A model generated the notes under the pieces. The model was given only the letters and a program-made list of their open reading frames with translations, was not told the DNA's origin and did no database searches. A DNA stretch of 64,000 bases from Candidatus Methylopumilus universalis (GTDB taxonomy: Bacteria > Pseudomonadota > Gammaproteobacteria > Burkholderiales > Methylophilaceae), in assembly GCA_945883335.1 (NCBI GenBank), contig CAMCXI010000002.1, positions 124,001 to 188,000 on the forward strand, given 5' to 3'. This document shows positions 12,722 to 22,604 of this stretch, in pieces (positions within the stretch are counted from its first letter, which is position 1; the number at the start of each line of letters is the position of its first letter). The position numbers and the translations under genes are program-made.

Positions 12722-15295
12722 CTAATCAGCTTGCGAATCAGGGCGCTGGGCTATTATCTGACAGGCAAGCGCACTCGCATATGGCAATGATTGTAAGGTC
12801 AACATGGTAACCCATAGCTCTGCATCTATGTTTGTAAAGCCACGAGAAATTAACATTGTAAGGCCGCAAATGACGAGCAAGCTGAGTAAGGCGACTTCCT
12901 CAATAATTGGGTTAAGAGTTTGGAGTTTATTGCTCGCGACCTTTCCTTTGGCTGTGACTTTAAACACGCCGTCTTTTTTGATGATCCCCATCATTACTCC
13001 TCGTGCAATAGCATGAGATAAGCCTAAGCTAGCAAGTGATGCACCAAAAATATCTTTCCAACTACAGTTCATGGTTTTGCGGTACAGGACTGGACCAAGC
13101 GCTGCTTTGATCACTAAAAAGAATAATATCGGCATGATCATGATGGTGACCGGAAGACTAAATGCACTTGGCATTAATAACATCGCTGCGGTCCAGGCAA
13201 TAGAGCCAATCGTAAAAATAAGCTGTAGTGCATCACCTAGCCAACCAAACCAACCAGTAAGGAAATGGTAACGTTGACCAAAAGTAAGTGTGGAGTCGCC
13301 AATTAATTTCGGGAGATGGCGTTTGAGAATTTGCATGGCGCCAAATGCCCAGCGGAAGCGCTGTGACTTCAGCGCTTTAAAGTCCGAAGGTGTTAGGCCG
13401 CGACCAAAGGTGTCATCGATATAGCGAAGCTCAAAGCCATTTTCTAATAAACGTAAACCCAACTCCGTGTCTTCACAAATACACCATTCTGACCACTTGC
13501 CCAATTCTACTAATGGGTGATAGCGAACAAGTGTCATCGTGCCATGTTGAATAAGTGCGTTTCGTTCGTGTCTGTGATGCATACCAATTCTGAAGAATCC
13601 TTCAAACTCCCAATTGCTCATACGACGGAAGAAATTATTTTCCCAATCGCGGTGAGCTTGTGGGGCCTGAACTACGGCTACTTTAGGATCAAAAAAATGT
13701 GGGACTAAATCAGAAAGCCAGTCCGGTGTGACTTCATAATCAGCATCAACAACACCAACAACTTCGGCATTTGGACTTGTTTGCTCAAGCGCAAAGTTTA
13801 ATGCGCCAGCTTTGAATCCAGGCCATTGTTGTAAATGGAAGAAGCGGAAGTTATCAGGCATCTTTGCCATATACGCTTCAATTGGTTTCCATTTATCTTC
13901 ATCTTTAGTGTTGTTATCCACAACGATGACTTCGTAGTGGGTATAGTTGAGTTTAGCTAGACTCTCAATCGTTGCAATCACCATTGCAGGCGGTTCGTTA
14001 TAGCAAGCAAGATGAATGGATACAAAGCGCTCTTGGTCGCTTGAAACGGGAATTGCGCGTTTAAAAGTACGATTCCATTTTCTTTTAAACATGACTTCAC
14101 TAAACTCTACCCCATATATCATAAGGACTGCAGAGGTTAGCCCCATGCCGATAACCAGGGCAATCAGCACCACAAAATCACGAACCGTGTAGTAATAATC
14201 ACCGGGTAAATTCCATGCGACGACCAGTGTGGTAATACAAGCTTGAAGCAAGATAGCCATTGAGAATCGTCCGCCTGAGCCCCAATGCCTAAAGCGATAA
14301 GCAATAAACAGAATAGGGAAGAAGGCGATTAAGCTTGCCCACAAAGCCTTCGCTTCCCAGCGATCATCTTTGGCTACTGCACCTTGAAGTGAGTATTTCG
14401 GATTGCGTTCAGCATCAAACATGCCCCAATAAGGACCTGCCCAGCCTTCTAGTTTTTGTTTCCAGGGCTGGTCAAAGGCTTCCATGAGGTAATAGTCATA
14501 ATTTTTACGTGCGGTTTTAGCTAAAAATTCACGTACAAATCTTGCCTGATTTACATCCGAAGCAACTGCGGCGCCAATTGTCGGCCCATGACTAGGCCAG
14601 CCAATTTCAGTGATCACTATCTTTTTACGTGGGAAGGTGTCCATCAGTTCTTGGTAGCGTGTGAATGCATAGTCTACTGCTTCTTCAACAGCCAATCCCT
14701 CATGGTAAGGTAAGAGATGAACGGCAATGTAATCAACGTGCTTCACTAGTTCCGGATTCTTTAACCAGATATGCCAAGGCTCTGCGGTTGAAATTGGTAA
14801 TGTTGTATTGGAGCGAACCTCGTCTAAGTAGCTGATTAACTCTTCTGGGGTAACATCCTCGCGAAGCAATGACTCGTTACCTACAATAGCGCGTTCGATA
14901 TGCGGATAATTCTTAATCTTTGCTTTGAGTGCATCAATCTCTCTTTGATTTGCACGGAGGTCATTATTGATCCAGGCGCCAGCAGTGATTTCAAAATTTA
15001 AGTTAGAGGCAAGAGCAGTCACTTCACTGTTTTCAAGTGCGCCATAAATACGAATACGATTGGTCAGTGTTCTTAGAATTTTTAAGTCTTTTTCTAGCTC
15101 GGCGGTGCTTGGATAGTCCTTCTCAAGCGGACTTTGGTTTTCTTGGAATCCGCTATAGGCAAAGCCATTAACGATGGTTGGTGCGTTCATTGTAGGAATA
15201 GCCCTATTTGAAATGCTCCAAATGCCAAAATGAATGATTGCAATCAAAGTTGCAAACAATAATGGCTTGATATAACGCTTAAAAAATGGATGCAT
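12722..15295 (-). CDS. Membrane beta-glucan synthase: GH17 domain fused to GT2 glycosyltransferase
   Basis: An 857-residue fusion. After an N-terminal membrane helix (10-28) comes a GH17 beta-1,3-glucanase/transglycosylase domain (about 40-300) with acid/base Glu141 in IVGNES and nucleophile Glu230 in VITEIGWPS. Then come membrane helices near 315-335, 345-362 and 370-398. A processive GT2 domain follows with DAD at 517-519, ED at 608-609 and QRFRW at 645-649, and then several more helices. This layout matches NdvB-type proteins that make cyclic beta-(1,3)-linked glucans from UDP-glucose in rhizobia and Pseudomonas. It follows a second GH17 gene by 30 bases, probably one operon. Product linkage and cyclisation are inferred. 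Confidence 0.82.
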   Translation of the reverse strand: MHPFFKRYIKPLLFATLIAIIHFGIWSISNRAIPTMNAPTIVNGFAYSGFQENQSPLEKDYPSTAELEKDLKILRTLTNRIRIYGALENSEVTALASNLNFEITAGAWINNDLRANQREIDALKAKIKNYPHIERAIVGNESLLREDVTPEELISYLDEVRSNTTLPISTAEPWHIWLKNPELVKHVDYIAVHLLPYHEGLAVEEAVDYAFTRYQELMDTFPRKKIVITEIGWPSHGPTIGAAVASDVNQARFVREFLAKTARKNYDYYLMEAFDQPWKQKLEGWAGPYWGMFDAERNPKYSLQGAVAKDDRWEAKALWASLIAFFPILFIAYRFRHWGSGGRFSMAILLQACITTLVVAWNLPGDYYYTVRDFVVLIALVIGMGLTSAVLMIYGVEFSEVMFKRKWNRTFKRAIPVSSDQERFVSIHLACYNEPPAMVIATIESLAKLNYTHYEVIVVDNNTKDEDKWKPIEAYMAKMPDNFRFFHLQQWPGFKAGALNFALEQTSPNAEVVGVVDADYEVTPDWLSDLVPHFFDPKVAVVQAPQAHRDWENNFFRRMSNWEFEGFFRIGMHHRHERNALIQHGTMTLVRYHPLVELGKWSEWCICEDTELGLRLLENGFELRYIDDTFGRGLTPSDFKALKSQRFRWAFGAMQILKRHLPKLIGDSTLTFGQRYHFLTGWFGWLGDALQLIFTIGSIAWTAAMLLMPSAFSLPVTIMIMPILFFLVIKAALGPVLYRKTMNCSWKDIFGASLASLGLSHAIARGVMMGIIKKDGVFKVTAKGKVASNKLQTLNPIIEEVALLSLLVICGLTMLISRGFTNIDAELWVTMLTLQSLPYASALACQIIAQRPDSQAD

Positions 15296-15325: not shown

Positions 15326-16897
15326 TTAAATTGTAGAAGTAGGTTTGCTTGGCCAATTAGCCCAAGCTATGAGCGTACTTAGTAGTAACCAAACAAATGC
15401 TAAAGCATTGGTCGGCTCTTTGTAGAAACAAAAGATTGCGGTGGCAACCAGAAAGATTCCTAAGAAGCGAAACGCTGAAAAGTTGATGCAGGTGCTTTTA
15501 TTGAGCAATTTTAAGCCAATTGTGAGCTCTAATATCGTTAATCCATACAAGATGATGGCGAAGTCGCGGTAACGTCCGTCAAGGCTTAATAAGTAATTTG
15601 CAATGACAGCCGCTACCAATAAGAAGGTTAAAGATAACTGAATGATCATTTTTGCCGTTTTATTCTCATTGAAGATATAGCTCGGGATGCTTAATAAGCT
15701 GATTAAACTTATCACAGCAATGCTGCCGAGAGATAACCATTCTTGAATTGTTCGACAAGAAATAGCAAGATACTCAATCTGTAATAGTGTGCTTATCCCA
15801 ATCAACGCGCCCAGAAGCGACATGCTTAAAAGCTGGCTTTTGTTGCAATTGTTTAGTTTCAATGACCAAACTAAAAATAGTAGTGCGGTTATCAGGGCTG
15901 TATAGAAAAATAGTTTTCCGTCATGTCTTTCTGCGACCTCGCCAGAAAATGCAAATTTTGGCTCCATGTCAACATTGAATATCCCCCAATATCCCCCTGC
16001 GGTTCCTTCTAAAGATCGTTTCCAAGGCTGGTCAAAGGCTTCAATTAGATTGTAATTCCAATGCTTTTCTTCCGCCATGGTTAAAAAGCCTCGCATATAT
16101 TTGGCTTGATTAATGATACTTGGTTTCGCGCTTTCACGTTGACGGCCAAGCGATGGCCAGCCAGTTTCCCCAATGAGAATTGGTTTTTTGAAGGTGCGCC
16201 CCAATAGGTTCATTACGTTATTTGTATGATCAAGAGCGTGCTCTATCGATTGAGGTTTGTCTTCCCAATAAGGGAGTATATGAACGGTAACGAAATCAAC
16301 AGAGTCTTCAAGTTTAGAGTGTTTGCGCCAAAATTCCCAAACGTCTGCATAAGTAACAGGAACATTTGTCGCAGCTTTTGCTCGAAGAATGTAGGACTTC
16401 ATGGCCGATTCGGTTTGTTCGCCACGTAATAAAACCTCATTACCAATAATAAGTGCTTTTACCGTTTCTGGATGTTTGTTGGTTACTTCGATGGCGAGTT
16501 TTAATTCTTTCTCATTAAGCTTTTTGAACCAGCCTATCCAAGCCCCAACATAAGCTTTCATGCCCAGTTTGGATGCGGCTTCTGGCACATAATCCAAGCC
16601 TTGGCCTACAGAGTAGATGCGAACGCACGCGAATTGTTTAGAGAGATTAGCCAAGTCATGGTCAATTTGTTCGGGTGTAATGCGGGTGTTAATGTTGAGC
16701 GGCGTTTGGCCGTTTTTGTAATAAGGTGAGTAAGAGACGCATTGAAGTTTGCTATCAGCGGCTAAGTTTGGTTCAGGCAGTGCTTGAGGCTGATTCTGTT
16801 GCCAAAGCCATAGAGCAAGAGCGAGCAATAAAATAAAGTTAAATACGCTAAAGCGCCAAATGAAATGATGTTTTTGTGTTGGACTTAAATACGACAT
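15326..16897 (-). CDS. Membrane-anchored GH17 beta-1,3-glucan hydrolase/transglycosylase
   Basis: A 523-residue protein with an N-terminal helix (about 14-32), a periplasmic GH17 domain (about 50-310) with acid/base Glu154 in IIGNEV and nucleophile Glu244 in LIGETGWPS, and a C-terminal half of about six membrane helices (330-515). It resembles the GH17 half of the downstream fusion protein but has no GT2 domain. By analogy with rhizobial NdvC it may branch or cyclise the glucan made by the neighbour. The ATG has AGGA just upstream. Signal and helix calls are by eye. Confidence 0.8.
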   Translation of the reverse strand: MSYLSPTQKHHFIWRFSVFNFILLLALALWLWQQNQPQALPEPNLAADSKLQCVSYSPYYKNGQTPLNINTRITPEQIDHDLANLSKQFACVRIYSVGQGLDYVPEAASKLGMKAYVGAWIGWFKKLNEKELKLAIEVTNKHPETVKALIIGNEVLLRGEQTESAMKSYILRAKAATNVPVTYADVWEFWRKHSKLEDSVDFVTVHILPYWEDKPQSIEHALDHTNNVMNLLGRTFKKPILIGETGWPSLGRQRESAKPSIINQAKYMRGFLTMAEEKHWNYNLIEAFDQPWKRSLEGTAGGYWGIFNVDMEPKFAFSGEVAERHDGKLFFYTALITALLFLVWSLKLNNCNKSQLLSMSLLGALIGISTLLQIEYLAISCRTIQEWLSLGSIAVISLISLLSIPSYIFNENKTAKMIIQLSLTFLLVAAVIANYLLSLDGRYRDFAIILYGLTILELTIGLKLLNKSTCINFSAFRFLGIFLVATAIFCFYKEPTNALAFVWLLLSTLIAWANWPSKPTSTI

Positions 16898-17610: not shown

Positions 17611-18393
17611 TTAAGGCATCTTCACTAGGCTGATGCTCGCGAGGTCTTTGCTAAGACCTTCGCTACTTAGCACAGCAAACTCTCTAACTCTCGCTGGATA
17701 GATGAGGTCATTATTGACTGGAGTTTGATCTATTGCCGGATGACACATTAATACTGGGGTAGCTTCATCGGTATTTACCTCTTTAAGCCATCCTCTGAAA
17801 CGCGCTAAATATGCTGCACTTGAACCATTAAAACCGTAGGCGCCAAGTAAGCTTCCCGAACAAACAAATCCGAGCTTTTTTGCTTTCCTATTCAATGCCC
17901 TCGCGCCTAATAAGCCAATCACTATGCCCTTAAAGCCATCGCTTAAAGGCGGCTTTGCAATGCGCAACCAAGGGAGTTTGATTTGATAGCGTGCTGATAG
18001 TACCTCGAGTAAAGCCTCGCGAATGACTGGCAGTTGATGCACATGCTGATGACCATCAACATAATCAGGCGCAGTGCCAATGCCAGCCTCAAAGGCATCG
18101 AGTTGTTGATGGATGCTTGATTGAAGTTTTTCTTTTGAAAGCTGACGGGTCAAGCTTAAGTACACTAATTTTGGATGTGAAATTGCGCCACCAAAATGGG
18201 TAAAGTCCAAATGCAATCCAATGGCGGCTTTTTTTCTAATGCTTGGCGTTAGTTTTTTTGCAGCTAGAGTCCATCGAGGGCTGAGTGTCATGCAGGAAGT
18301 TGCACTGAGTCTATCCATCTCAATCAGCGCGATAATCGCTTGATCTATCGCTTCGCTTTGCCCAAAGTCATCGGCACACAATATCAGCTTCAT
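17611..18393 (-). CDS. YdjC/ChbG/HpnK-family carbohydrate deacetylase
   Basis: A 260-residue YdjC-fold polysaccharide deacetylase. Visible metal-site elements are CADDFG with Asp8-Asp9 near the N-terminus, GLHLDF with His61, and DGHQHVHQ with Asp113, His115, His117 and His119. The family removes acetyl groups from amino sugars; ChbG acts on chitooligosaccharides and HpnK is linked to hopanoid loci. No hopanoid genes are present here. The gene overlaps the upstream GtrA gene by four bases and is the last of a coupled four-gene set. Deacetylation of a lipid-linked amino sugar is the most economical guess, by analogy with ArnD, which belongs to a different family. Confidence 0.82.
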   Translation of the reverse strand: MKLILCADDFGQSEAIDQAIIALIEMDRLSATSCMTLSPRWTLAAKKLTPSIRKKAAIGLHLDFTHFGGAISHPKLVYLSLTRQLSKEKLQSSIHQQLDAFEAGIGTAPDYVDGHQHVHQLPVIREALLEVLSARYQIKLPWLRIAKPPLSDGFKGIVIGLLGARALNRKAKKLGFVCSGSLLGAYGFNGSSAAYLARFRGWLKEVNTDEATPVLMCHPAIDQTPVNNDLIYPARVREFAVLSSEGLSKDLASISLVKMP

Positions 18394-18797
18394 TGTGTGC
18401 CTTTAAATGCCCAAAACTTACTTAAAAGATAAGTGCTAGCAGCAACCAATACCATCACTACGCCGAGTACAAGCCAAAATGGCAAATTGGTGTATTCAAT
18501 GCCATTTAACAACAAGGTTTGGTTGGCTAAAAAGCCAAGCACTGCAACTGATAGAAAGCGAGGAAACGCTTGAGTGTGGCTTGCATCTTGGCCAGCAAAA
18601 CTGAATTTACGATGCCCAAAATAACTCACAGGAAACGCAGCGATAAAGCCCGCAATGTTGGCATGAGAGGCTGTCAGAAATGCATTATGCTCAAAGCTGA
18701 CTGCAATGATGTAATGCGTTAGCGCGGCAAGTGCACCGATAATCGTGAACCAAGAAACTGACTTCGTATGACTTTCAGACATTGGATTGCTAGACAT
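18390..18797 (-). CDS. GtrA-like membrane protein, putative lipid-linked sugar flippase
   Basis: A 135-residue protein with four predicted helices (about 15-33, 42-60, 82-100 and 108-128) and the family pattern FxxNxxGFxxAFPVSYFGHRKFSF in part (N47 and the HRKFSF segment). GtrA proteins are thought to move undecaprenyl- or dolichyl-phosphate-linked sugars across the inner membrane. It overlaps the upstream GT2 gene by one base and the downstream deacetylase by four, so translation is coupled. The GT2 neighbour is the expected partner, as in gtrA-gtrB pairs. Confidence 0.85.
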   Translation of the reverse strand: MSSNPMSESHTKSVSWFTIIGALAALTHYIIAVSFEHNAFLTASHANIAGFIAAFPVSYFGHRKFSFAGQDASHTQAFPRFLSVAVLGFLANQTLLLNGIEYTNLPFWLVLGVVMVLVAASTYLLSKFWAFKGTQ

Positions 18798-19819
18798 TAG
18801 ATCAATAAATCTTGCTCTGGAGTTACTGATGTTTTTGCTTTTGAGGCGCGCGGTTTTGAAGCTGTTTTTGCGCCATGAGGTTTTGATATCTCAGCCACGA
18901 TGTAAGAAGGGCGTCCTTTGACTTCGTCGTATACGCGCGCCAAGTACTCTCCTAAGATACCGATAAATAATAGCTGCACGCCTGCAAAAAACATCATGCT
19001 AGCAACCACCGTTGGCCAGCCAGGCACGGACTCAGCAAAGAAGAGCCTGTCTACAACAACGTAAATGCCGTAGATGAAGGCTATGAATGCTAAAGATGCC
19101 CCCAACGCGCTTGCTAGGCGAAGTGGCATGACGGAGAAGCTGGTAATGCCTGTCCAAGCGAGTTGGATGAGCTTAAGTTTTGAGAAGGTGCTCTCGCCGT
19201 GGGTTCGTTCTAAAGGGAAGTAGGGGATGCCAATCGACTTGTAACCTACCCAAGCGTAAATCCCTTTCATAAAGCGATTGCGCTCAGGTAAAGATAGTAA
19301 AGCGTTCACAACCTGTCTATCCATGAGGCGGAAGTCACCAGCGTCAGGCGGAATGTTAATTTGCCCACTCAAGCTCATCGCTCGGTAAAAAATCTTAGAG
19401 CCCCAGCGTTTAAATTGCGATTCAACCTCTCGGTCTTGGCGAACGGCGTAAACCATGTCGTAGCCTTCGCGCCATTTTTCAAGCATTTGAGCCAACAATT
19501 CTGATGAGTGTTGGCCGTCAGCATCCATACAAATCACGATGTCGCCAGATGCATTCTCTAAGCCAGCTGTGATGGCATATTCTTTACCGAAGTTGCGTGA
19601 AAACCTTACTAGCGTCGTATTGAGTTCTTTAGCTAATGCTCGCACCACGTTGGCTGTTTGGTCGAGACTGCCATCATCAATGACAACCACATCCCAGTTT
19701 GGGGTGAGTTGCTCTAGGTGATGGGCGATGTTCACAACCGTATTTGAGATCGCGGCGGCCTCATTAAAAGCTGGGACGATGAGGGTAATATGCGGGTTTT
19801 GTGTATAGCGAGCGGTCAT
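18797..19819 (-). CDS. GT2 polyprenyl-phosphate glycosyltransferase (GtrB/ArnC/DPM1-like)
   Basis: A 340-residue family 2 glycosyltransferase. The GT-A domain shows VVIDDGS (46-51) and the metal-binding DADGQ with Asp99 and Asp101. Two C-terminal helices near 232-258 and 268-293 anchor it to the membrane, the topology of GtrB and ArnC. These enzymes load a sugar from a nucleotide donor onto undecaprenyl phosphate at the cytoplasmic face. The Lys/Ala/Ser-rich C-terminal tail (about 315-340) is unusual. It lies 8 bases after the GT39-type transferase gene and overlaps GtrA. The donor sugar is unknown. Confidence 0.88.
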   Translation of the reverse strand: MTARYTQNPHITLIVPAFNEAAAISNTVVNIAHHLEQLTPNWDVVVIDDGSLDQTANVVRALAKELNTTLVRFSRNFGKEYAITAGLENASGDIVICMDADGQHSSELLAQMLEKWREGYDMVYAVRQDREVESQFKRWGSKIFYRAMSLSGQINIPPDAGDFRLMDRQVVNALLSLPERNRFMKGIYAWVGYKSIGIPYFPLERTHGESTFSKLKLIQLAWTGITSFSVMPLRLASALGASLAFIAFIYGIYVVVDRLFFAESVPGWPTVVASMMFFAGVQLLFIGILGEYLARVYDEVKGRPSYIVAEISKPHGAKTASKPRASKAKTSVTPEQDLLI

Positions 19820-19827
19820 TTTTTTCC

Positions 19828-21468
19828 TTAATCAGGCTTTGCTTGGTGTGGGCGACGTTCTTCACCTATTAAATCACGTCTATCTTTCACCACAGCAATT
19901 TTGGCGCCTAGGCGCTCAATCTTACCAATCGTTTTTCCGTTCAGCATGGCATCATTGTTCATGGTGGTAGCCGAAATGTAAAAATCTGCACGTACCCAGT
20001 CTCTTGTGACCACAAATCGCTTGTCTAAATACACCTGCCCTTGAAATGATTCCGCACAAACCGCTACGTAGTATGGTTCGTCAGGTTTCTTTGCCAAATG
20101 TGCTTCCTCATTATTAATATAGTCAGTAAGTATTTTGCTTGACTCGATAATGTTGCTAGACCAGTAATCACTTTCCCAATCATGTTCAGCTTGCTGCATG
20201 CTTTTAGCGGCAAAGTGGTTGTAGTAAAGGTATTGATATGGGTGCAGTTTAAATAATAGGTAACAGGTATTAAATGCCAATAATAGGCAAGCGCTAGTCA
20301 AGATCATTTTCCAGCGCGGATAGGTTTTGAATGCCTGGTAGGCGTTTGATAGGCCAATGCCAGAAAAAATAGCGAGTGGGGGAATAATGAACGTAAAGTG
20401 CCTTACCCCATTGTAGAGCGCAGGCCTGTCATAAAGTACAAATAAAAGAGGGAATAGCAGGGTTATTGCAAGGGTGATTTCAGGTAATTTCTCTGAAAAA
20501 TAAGCCCTAAAGTGATTATTGATGCGCAAGAGACTAGCGCCACACATGATGAGTCCTGCAACCAATCCTAGTAAAAAGACTTCAGGTAAGCGAATGGCCA
20601 AATATTGAAGTAGATAAAAGCGTGAAATATCCCCGATGCTAAACCATTGCCCATTTGCAATACTGCTCATATCAAATTCAAAGTGTGAAAACGATTTTGC
20701 AGCAATCAAAATGTGGTCTGCGCCCATCATTGCCCAAGGCCAAAACAAAGCCATAATCGCAAAAGCGACAATGCCGGCAGGCAATAAGCCAATGAAAGCC
20801 TTGGTGTAAAAGCTTAATTTTTCTTTTAGGCTTGGGGCTTGGATGAGGCAAGCAATGATTACTAAAAGCAGTAAGTAAATCACGGAAAACGCGCCACCAA
20901 TTCTTAAGCCGAGCGCAAAGCCCACAGCAATACCCAGCTTAATGCTGATGTTGCGTGGAATGCGGTCTAACTTGTCTGAGATCAAAGTCGAGTAATAAAG
21001 CGCCCAGGCCATGCAAGCGCCAAATGAAACATCTTTGGTGTGTGTGAACATAGCGCCAGACCAAGCACCTGTCATTGTGAGAAGAAGCGCGGCCAGCAAT
21101 GCGGCACGCTCACCTGCTAATTTTTCGGTAATTTTATAAACCGCAATAATGCCGGCTAAACCAAAAATGGCTGAAAGCAGATGGCGAATATCCCACACCC
21201 AAATCGGTAGGATTTTTTCTAATGATGCGGCGACTAAGTCAAAAAAGCCGCCATATAAATAAAGATTTTTGTAGGTAAACGCTGATTGATCTGCAAAACC
21301 TGAGCTATAAAACTTAAGCAGTAATCGACCATATACATGCTGAACTTCCTCATCATTGCTCACGCCATATTGCTTAAAGGTTAGCAGGATAAAAATGGCA
21401 AGTGCGCCAAATAGTGCGTAAGAAAGCTTTTTGTATATGCTTGAAGTCATTAGATGACGCATTCTCAT
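19828..21468 (-). CDS. GT39/ArnT-type integral membrane glycosyltransferase
   Basis: About 546 residues from the ATG at 21468; starts at 21462 and 21450 are also possible, and a start at 21516 would overlap queG. Roughly ten to eleven membrane helices are spread over the first 430 residues. The first periplasmic loop carries acidic Asp39-Glu40-Glu41 in VSNDEEVQ, the place where GT-C enzymes of the PMT/ArnT group keep their catalytic acid. A soluble C-terminal region follows. It should transfer a sugar from a polyprenyl phosphate donor to lipid A, protein or a glycan in the periplasm. It heads the four-gene cluster. A TATAAT overlaps the queG stop codon (21486-21481), five or so bases before the expected message start. 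Confidence 0.78.
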   Translation of the reverse strand: MRMRHLMTSSIYKKLSYALFGALAIFILLTFKQYGVSNDEEVQHVYGRLLLKFYSSGFADQSAFTYKNLYLYGGFFDLVAASLEKILPIWVWDIRHLLSAIFGLAGIIAVYKITEKLAGERAALLAALLLTMTGAWSGAMFTHTKDVSFGACMAWALYYSTLISDKLDRIPRNISIKLGIAVGFALGLRIGGAFSVIYLLLLVIIACLIQAPSLKEKLSFYTKAFIGLLPAGIVAFAIMALFWPWAMMGADHILIAAKSFSHFEFDMSSIANGQWFSIGDISRFYLLQYLAIRLPEVFLLGLVAGLIMCGASLLRINNHFRAYFSEKLPEITLAITLLFPLLFVLYDRPALYNGVRHFTFIIPPLAIFSGIGLSNAYQAFKTYPRWKMILTSACLLLAFNTCYLLFKLHPYQYLYYNHFAAKSMQQAEHDWESDYWSSNIIESSKILTDYINNEEAHLAKKPDEPYYVAVCAESFQGQVYLDKRFVVTRDWVRADFYISATTMNNDAMLNGKTIGKIERLGAKIAVVKDRRDLIGEERRPHQAKPD

Positions 21469-21482
21469 AATAAGTCGCCCGA

Positions 21483-22604
21483 TTATACAGCGATGTGGTG
21501 CTGTTGTAATGCCCATGCCACATGCTCTCGTACCAAAGCTGAAGGGTCATTAACGCGTGATTGAAGCGCATTAATAATCTCATCTGTGCTTGTTGCATTA
21601 CCTAAGCCAATTGCAAGGTTTCTCAGCCATTGCTCATGACCGATACGATAGATGGCGCTACCAGCCATTTTTTCATTAAAGGTGGCTTCACCCCACGCGA
21701 ATAACTCAACAAGTGAAATAGCGTCCAAACCATGTCTGACATGAAAATCATCCTGCTCGGTGATTTGCCCAAAACGATTCCAAGGGCAGGTGAGTTGGCA
21801 ATCATCGCAACCGTAAATACGATTGCCGATAAGCGTTCTAAACGCTTCAGGAATGCTGGTTTTTAGCTCAATAGTGAGGTAAGAAATACAGCGTCGTGCA
21901 TCTACTTCATAAGGGGCCACAATGGCTTGTGTGGGGCAAGTATCAATACAGGCAGTGCATGTGCCGCAGTGGTTACCTGTCGGTGCGTCGATGGGTAAGG
22001 GTAAGTCAGTGTAAATCTCGCCTAAAAAGAACCAAGAGCCAGCTTCGCGTGAGAGTAATAGGGTGTGCTTGCCGCGCCAACCCAAGCCAGCTTTTTCTGC
22101 TAAAGCGACTTCTAATACTGGTGCGCTATCGGTAAACACGCGATATTGAAAGTCTTTTAATTGGTGTTGAGGTAATTCACTTTGAATCTTGTCACAAAGC
22201 TTCTGTAGGCGCCCCCGAAGGACTTTGTGATAATCGCGACCTAGTGCGTAACGTGAGATAAAAGCTTGGTCATTCTCTTTCAAAACCGCTTCTGCATCCT
22301 TTGCCTGTGGCGGCTGATAATCCATACGCACAGAAATTACCCGTATGGTGCCAGCGACTAATTCGGCAGGTTGGGTACGCTTATTGCCGTGTTTTGCCAT
22401 ATAATCCATAGCACCATGAAAGCCTTTCTCAATCCACGCTTGATAATGCGGTTCAGCGCTCGCCAAATCGGTATCGGTAATACCTACATGGCTGAATCCC
22501 AATGCTTTCCCCCAGTCCTTAATGGCGATGGCAAGGGCTTTAAGATTGTTGGTTTCTAGATGGTTAGTTTCTAGATTATTGGTTTCATCAAACATATGGA
22601 ACAT
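21483..22604 (-). CDS. queG: Epoxyqueuosine reductase
   Basis: QueG performs the last step of queuosine synthesis, reducing epoxyqueuosine in tRNA with a cobalamin and two [4Fe-4S] clusters. The 373-residue protein shows the catalytic Asp159 in FTDSAPVLE, cluster motif C213GTC216TAC219IDTC223P, a second set with Cys239, Cys266, Cys269 and Cys273 (CDDCQLTCPWN), and a C-terminal HEAT-like domain. The N-terminus carries three ETNxL repeats (7-21) that typical QueG proteins lack. The only usable starts are ATG at 22604 or 22595, so the gene overlaps the divergent tsaE start. queF lies 17 kb away in this window. Confidence 0.96.
   Translation of the reverse strand: MFHMFDETNNLETNHLETNNLKALAIAIKDWGKALGFSHVGITDTDLASAEPHYQAWIEKGFHGAMDYMAKHGNKRTQPAELVAGTIRVISVRMDYQPPQAKDAEAVLKENDQAFISRYALGRDYHKVLRGRLQKLCDKIQSELPQHQLKDFQYRVFTDSAPVLEVALAEKAGLGWRGKHTLLLSREAGSWFFLGEIYTDLPLPIDAPTGNHCGTCTACIDTCPTQAIVAPYEVDARRCISYLTIELKTSIPEAFRTLIGNRIYGCDDCQLTCPWNRFGQITEQDDFHVRHGLDAISLVELFAWGEATFNEKMAGSAIYRIGHEQWLRNLAIGLGNATSTDEIINALQSRVNDPSALVREHVAWALQQHHIAV
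22542..22586 (-). repeat. queG: Three 15-bp tandem repeats at the queG 5' end
   Basis: Three in-phase units at 22572-22586, 22557-22571 and 22542-22556 (minus strand: GAAACCAATAATCTA and near copies) encode ETNNL-ETNHL-ETNNL. On the plus strand they are the 54 bases just upstream of tsaE, so they are both coding and 5' leader sequence. Confidence 0.85.

Follow-up and report, generated by a model that had tools for sequence, protein, structure and literature searches.

Does the gene cluster described here prepare and transfer an amino sugar and, if so, which envelope component receives it? The window, as we call the whole 64,000-nucleotide stretch analysed, carries adjoining genes for a GT39 transferase, a GT2 transferase, a GtrA-family protein and a YdjC-type deacetylase. 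The initial annotation read these genes as an Arn-like pathway built from other parts, in which a sugar is loaded on undecaprenyl phosphate, deacylated, flipped and transferred. It offered lipid A, hopanoids or glycans as the target.

Organization of the gene cluster

The four genes are listed in Table 1. In the direction of transcription, their order on the minus strand is GT39, GT2, GtrA, YdjC (17611-21468). GT39 and GT2 are separated by a gap of 8 nt, GT2 and GtrA overlap by 1 nt, and GtrA and YdjC overlap by 4 nt. At its longest possible start the GT39 ORF can be extended to 21516; the starts in relatives suggest that the true start is the Met at 21450. The same-strand gene upstream of the cluster is queG, which overlaps the longer GT39 ORF.

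Table 1. Genes of the cluster, in the order of transcription.
Product	Position	Strand	Basis
GT39 / PMT_2 GT-C membrane glycosyltransferase, presumed final transferase	19828..21468	-	Pfam, AF2 fold
GT2, GtrB/ArnC-type undecaprenyl-phosphate sugar transferase (carrier presumed)	18797..19819	-	PDB profile matches
GtrA-family small membrane protein, possible flippase or GT2 partner	18390..18797	-	PF04138
YdjC-superfamily N-deacetylase, NaxD/LgmC-like	17611..18393	-	PF04794, AF2 fold

All four products matched Pfam models above the cut-offs. The match was weak for GT39 (PMT_2, 3.2e-7, 31.1 bits against a cut-off of 26.1) and stronger for GT2 (Glycos_transf_2, 6.2e-33), GtrA (PF04138, 9.4e-18) and YdjC (PF04794, 9.3e-49). 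Coordinates and Pfam matches thus confirm the overlapped or nearly overlapped cluster of the initial annotation. The genome (1.6 Mb, 92.8% complete) contains LpxC, which speaks for the pathway proposed below, and its single PF04794 and PF04138 matches are the YdjC and GtrA of the cluster. The nearest named loci are from Methylophilaceae, including Candidatus Methylopumilus universalis (83% over YdjC residues 1-136), so that the DNA probably comes from a methylotroph belonging to this family.

Co-occurrence of the genes in the family

We searched 61 relatives, the genome under study counted in. YdjC was found in 19 of them, and GT39 in 20, namely the 19 YdjC carriers and one genome with a 26%-identity match. 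GT2 matches of any strength occurred in 57 genomes; those of at least 73% identity were confined to the same 19, the next best being 44%. GtrA was present at the cluster in 18 of the 19 carriers, and these 18 share the window's gene order; the exception, G026, has a cluster without GtrA. A contig end falls within YdjC in G003 and G013, and GT39 of G007 is broken across two contigs. Fisher's test gave p ~3e-16 for the co-occurrence, a figure that ignores shared ancestry. The initial annotation had proposed this co-occurrence check, which showed that the genes travel together, and had named separation of the genes in relatives as an argument against a common pathway; within the family the cluster genes lie side by side in 19/19 carriers.

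Alignments of the 19 family genomes held 18 rows for GT39 (A1, the partial G007 omitted), 17 for YdjC (A2, the two sequences cut by contig ends omitted), 19 in A3, and 17 for GtrA (A4, one absent and one short ORF omitted).

GT2 and GtrA

In the PDB, GT2 matched the glycosyltransferase sll0501 (E 1e-76), which we take to be GtrB, and ArnC (9.5e-47). GT2 is 32% identical to E. coli ArnC. When the E. coli arn locus was searched by tblastn with the four cluster proteins, only GT2 gave a match.

A flippase function for GtrA is an assumption, and the protein looks accessory because it is missing from 1/19 family clusters and 2/48 GT39-type loci (two sets that overlap) and because Bordetella lgmD, presumably a GtrA gene, is reportedly non-essential. 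The data do not support GtrA as an indispensable flippase. G026 has one GtrA elsewhere in its genome, which does not match the profile of the cluster GtrA. Judged by eye, this gene sits among apparent polysaccharide genes.

The deacetylase

The AF2 model of YdjC had a mean pLDDT of 95.2. In a PDB fold search ChbG was the best match (TM 0.73), and Salmonella ArnD was found at rank 8 (E 1.5e-5, TM 0.50), as the first row behind those for ChbG, EF3048, CmCBDA and TTHB029. From this rank of ArnD, YdjC and ArnD look like distant fold relatives. The claim that ArnD had been replaced by an unrelated family was thus too strong for the deacetylase.

Residues D8, D9, H61, H115, H117 and H218 were invariant in 36 aligned rows (A7, the window protein with 35 of 78 YdjC ORFs), and a subset of them is presumably metal-binding. 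With its YdjC domain, ChbG-like fold and conserved Asp and His residues, the protein belongs to the YdjC superfamily. It is 38-41% identical to YdjC proteins of Achromobacter and Bordetella ansorpii and 19-20% identical to ChbG in the fold alignment. The NCBIfam ChbG model gave a partial match of 62.8 bits against a cut-off of 227, and the HpnK model 40.8 bits against 232.6. A known role of the deacetylase on unrelated substrates, which the initial annotation had held to count against its reading, is not indicated by these scores, both far under the cut-offs.

The final transferase

Like ArnT, the product of the GT39 gene has a predicted GT-C fold (mean pLDDT 82.3). It was matched to ArnT 5ezm with Z 25.5 over 341 aligned residues (rmsd 3.8). 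The nearest fold rows were ArnT (Z 25.5 and 25.4) and oligosaccharyltransferases (25.3, 24.7 and 24.7), which is a tie. Since the oligosaccharyltransferase rows lie within 1 Z of 5ezm, the fold match does not single out ArnT.

Four sequence tests failed to identify GT39 as ArnT. The NCBIfam ArnT model (PRK13279) did not match the window protein, a PDB profile search with GT39 did not match ArnT, and hhalign of GT39 against ArnT gave a probability of 17% with E 0.0014 for a single comparison. D39, E40, K145 and D146 were invariant in 46 GT39 rows (A6, the window protein and 45 of 46 GT39 ORFs longer than 500 aa), and the invariant motifs SNDE, HTKD and YNGxRHFTF differ from the ArnT-type rows. 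The motif PDExRY was invariant in E. coli ArnT and 16 ArnT-type rows (A5, 16 of 22 ArnT-type ORFs from the 80 loci described below), whereas the GT39 rows have SNDE instead. The window GT39 thus belongs to another GT-C subfamily than the ArnT-type transferases. As it is not recognisably ArnT, its acceptor may differ.

We say ArnT-type, and not ArnT, for such neighbours because the four that were scanned (L094, L117, L081 and L110) had the NCBIfam ArnT model as their best model with 169-201 bits, under its cut-off of 567.

An ArnT-like GT-C gene unlinked to the cluster is also present in 14 of the 19 cluster genomes, including our own (L135, 3382-5037, 157 bits against the ArnT profile). It could possibly be the lipid A enzyme, or the real partner of the donor genes; the latter is weakened by the five cluster genomes in which no match was found at E 1e-6.

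Apparent exchange of the transferase beside a conserved gene pair

We compared 80 named YdjC loci, the best 80 of 491 relatives, a set that overlaps with the 19 family genomes. The window-type GT39 was present in 48 loci, 46 with GT2 and GtrA and two with GT2 only. An ArnT-type gene was present in 22 (17 with GT2 and GtrA, four with GT2 only, one with GtrA but no strong GT2), and another PMT_2 type with GT2 and GtrA in three. Three Vibrio loci consisted of GT2-YdjC with no match to the three GT-C profiles. The contigs of the remaining loci were cut, two of them with GT2 and GtrA and two with none of these genes. The gene order of the window was kept in 40 of the 48 GT39-type loci; GT39 follows YdjC in the other eight, mostly from Methyloversatilis.

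Six Achromobacter species (L094, L099, L101, L104-L106) and Bordetella ansorpii (L117) belong to the ArnT-type group; their lgm-like clusters have the arrangement GT2-ArnT-(GtrA, other strand)-YdjC. In an Aquabacterium locus (L081) an ArnT-type gene lies beside window-like GT2, GtrA and YdjC. The third PMT_2 type (L112 and L126) was matched by neither the ArnT nor the GT39 profile, and L103 and L116 carry homologues of it with the same neighbour genes. In the best 80 loci, the GT2/YdjC pair thus accompanies at least three GT-C types.

Among 274 genomes of the class, YdjC was found in 22 and GT39 in three. G188 has GT2-GtrA-YdjC and GT39 on separate contigs. G194 has GT39 with no YdjC alongside and a weak YdjC elsewhere only. 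Twelve strong YdjC stretches were examined from the 21 other genomes; nine weak ones (at most 56 bits) were left out, except for the GT39 stretch of G194. A strong GT2 was present in 11 of the 12 and a GT2 fragment in one. Three carried an ArnT-type GT-C and three another PMT_2 (L126, L130 and L134), one (L132) had fragments only, and five had no GT-C profile match.

A quick tree was built from 92 YdjC rows; its open forks and long branches restrict its use to counting partner changes. On it, the window-type label required 5 changes (3 of them forced by well-supported branches) compared with a mean of 30.8 after shuffling. The tree label T takes in three weak matches (L130, L132 and L134, at most 76 bits).

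Among 398 genomes of the phylum GT39 was matched in 30, including two genomes of the window's family. We took 20 GT39 stretches, some ending at contig ends, from 19 of the 28 out-of-family genomes. In the two highest-scoring stretches (581 and 480 bits) YdjC and GT2 adjoin GT39, and in one of these, from a distant genome, GT2 and GT39 are fused in a 939-aa ORF next to YdjC. No YdjC was seen in the remaining 18 (at most 388 bits, some contig-cut); two of these, L161 and L163, have a strong GT2 as a neighbour. Taken as a whole, this GT-C family is therefore not tied to amino sugars. That one GT39 branch travels with a deacetylase and the rest do not is our strongest indication of an amino-sugar donor for this branch.

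We propose, tentatively and at somewhat below even chances, that GT2 and YdjC, usually with GtrA, form an interchangeable undecaprenyl-phosphate-hexosamine donor module serving at least three GT-C subfamilies. The GT39 of Methylophilaceae and Methyloversatilis would then be a new kind of amino-sugar transferase, non-orthologous to the ArnT type and possibly with a new acceptor.

Proposed pathway and alternatives

Loading on a lipid, deacylation, perhaps flipping, and transfer, the sequence of events set out in the initial annotation, is still the best reading of genes that travel together. GT2 would make an undecaprenyl-phosphate-bound N-acetylhexosamine, and YdjC, on the cytoplasmic side, would remove the acetyl group. 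The resulting undecaprenyl-phosphate-hexosamine, probably with glucosamine as its sugar, would be positively charged. GtrA, as an accessory, may help this product to cross the membrane or let it cross. On the periplasmic side the GT-C enzyme would pass the amino sugar on to a component of the envelope, for which a lipid A phosphate is the likeliest candidate. We are confident that the cluster provides an undecaprenyl-phosphate-amino-sugar donor. That it is a pathway of the Lgm/NaxD type, with lipid A as the acceptor and the usual ArnT-type transferase replaced by another GT-C subfamily, we consider only somewhat better than an even bet. The lipid A acceptor is held less firmly than the donor pathway because the enzyme that defines the acceptor has been exchanged and because 14/19 cluster genomes have the unlinked ArnT-like GT-C.

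The main rival keeps the same donor and differs in the acceptor: the GT-C enzyme would decorate the LPS core or O-chain, an exopolysaccharide or a periplasmic protein. The separate subfamily of GT39, the tie between ArnT and protein oligosaccharyltransferases as its nearest folds, and the occurrence of the GT2/YdjC pair with at least three GT-C types are all consistent with this. However, the related donor genes of Achromobacter and Bordetella lie beside an ArnT-type gene, excerpts of the papers cited below place GlcN on lipid A in these bacteria, and no polysaccharide polymerase or Wzx-type gene is among the four. We therefore regard such an acceptor as rather unlikely, though well ahead of the rivals that follow. 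In one of these, GT2 would glycosylate a phospholipid directly and YdjC would deacetylate the product, as in the gpgSDF system of Pseudomonas aeruginosa, with GT39 incidental or acting later. The published parts of that system give this three-part logic a precedent, and the three Vibrio loci without a GT-C profile match would suit it. Yet the gpgSDF proteins, as described in the same excerpts, are of other families than the window's, GT2 matches ArnC and sll0501, and GT39 is present in all 19 cluster genomes and fused to GT2 elsewhere, which makes this route improbable.

The other two rivals concern the deacetylase and have very little probability. An HpnK-like enzyme tailoring hopanoid head groups could account for the weak HpnK match, but that match is far under the cut-off. 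A hopene cyclase was matched in none of the 19 cluster genomes, the 92.8% complete one included, and the five of 61 relatives with such a match (one weak) all lack the cluster; of the targets first proposed, hopanoids are thus disfavoured. Catabolism of chitooligosaccharides by a ChbG-like deacetylase beside unrelated transferases has in its favour that ChbG is the nearest solved fold and that its model was partially matched. The score of this match disfavours such a role, and all 19 YdjC carriers among the 61 genomes also have GT2 and GT39; we give it as slight a chance as the hopanoid route.

The Lgm/NaxD-type pathway that we prefer would extend cationic-sugar modification of the envelope, so far mostly a subject of work on pathogens, to free-living methylotrophs. 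The data suggest that one final transferase can take the place of another without loss of the donor genes. If this is true, GT39 would be a second way in which GT-C enzymes transfer amino sugars and would help to find what fixes the acceptor, and a search for ArnT alone would be an unsafe way to call such clusters present or absent.

Comparison with known systems

Among the literature matches listed, mostly from non-subscription papers, the Methylophilaceae form of the cluster was not named, and none was a paper on Methylophilus lipid A. The systems below are described from excerpts of the sources cited.

The closest likeness is to lgmA-D of Bordetella, whose GT2 and YdjC fall in the families seen in the window and which also has a GtrA gene and a GT-C transferase. 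Glucosamine on Bordetella lipid A requires lgmA, lgmB and lgmC, while lgmD of the same cluster is non-essential (PMC4993483). In Achromobacter, GlcN was identified on lipid A by GC-MS, with no lgm gene named in the excerpt (PMC9927164). The window shares with Achromobacter and B. ansorpii a polyprenyl-phosphate-type GT2 linked to a YdjC-superfamily deacetylase, which is a feature of the Lgm/NaxD type. The clusters of these bacteria are presumably lgm. They differ from the window in that their transferase is ArnT-type and GtrA is on the other strand, whereas the window has a GT-C enzyme of another subfamily and all four genes in one direction.

Like the putative window enzyme, NaxD of Francisella and Acinetobacter is a YdjC-superfamily deacetylase. 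It acts on undecaprenyl-P-GalNAc, which it converts to the GalN form that lipid A modification requires (PMC11279074). In Acinetobacter, overexpression of naxD alone gave no colistin resistance in one study (PMC6635527). The Francisella genes flmF2 and flmK are the neighbouring loci FTN0545 and FTN0546 (PMC4688374). Unlike the window GT39, flmK is given there as a locus of the ArnT type in another listing (PMC8149597); this system was compared by description.

With the E. coli arnBCADTEF system the window shares its logic, GT2 resembling ArnC in sequence, YdjC resembling ArnD distantly in fold and GT39 resembling ArnT in the GT-C fold. It differs in that GT2 alone matches the arn locus and the transferase is not ArnT by sequence. 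The excerpts on gpgSDF describe the synthesis of GlcN-phosphatidylglycerol by a transferase, a deacetylase and a predicted flippase. The likeness is an amino-sugar lipid made by these three parts; the difference is that they are of the GT4, COG3233 and AglD2/YbhN families, with no GT-C step.

The suggestion of a different route for amino-sugar decoration went too far, since NaxD and lgmABC are already published, as far as these excerpts go, and since ArnT-type genes stand in related clusters. The pathway logic is known; what is new in the window is a transferase that is not ArnT and donor genes that behave like a module.

Gene context and GT-C transferases

As shown in the table, queG lies immediately upstream of the GT39-GT2-GtrA-YdjC cluster. 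A queG match was found inside the fetched locus in 17 of the 19 family stretches and in 18 of the 80 named YdjC loci (the best 80 of 491 relatives), and queG and the cluster may share a common transcript.

A second GT-C of the genome is ArnT-like, and similar matches also occur in relatives without the cluster. At loci L103, L112, L116 and L126 of other genomes, these GT2 and YdjC genes have a PMT_2 transferase of a third type nearby. GT2-YdjC was also present at the Vibrio loci L096, L102 and L119, where three GT-C profiles matched nothing within the locus. GT39 is fused to GT2 in a distant genome (L148). In Methylobacillus glycogenes JCM 2850 (L070) it is divided between two ORFs, either because the gene is disrupted or because the sequence contains an error.

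Features near the cluster and GT-C genes elsewhere (window positions unless a locus is named)
Feature	Position	Strand	Remarks
GH17-GT2 fusion	12722-15295		Adjoins GH17-domain protein; Pfam and NCBIfam domains
GH17-domain protein	15326-16897		Beside GH17-GT2 fusion; Pfam and NCBIfam domains
queG	21483-22604	Same as cluster	
ArnT-like GT-C (PMT_2, 551 aa) with PAP2 phosphatase	G000:C2 (L135 3382-5668)		Own genome, outside window; GT-C gene first, phosphatase after it
GT2-GT39 fusion ORF (939 aa)	L148 5286-8105	−	YdjC gene alongside
GT39 as two ORFs	L070 2995-4500		

Within the window, the two GH17 genes presumably resemble a beta-glucan synthase pair.
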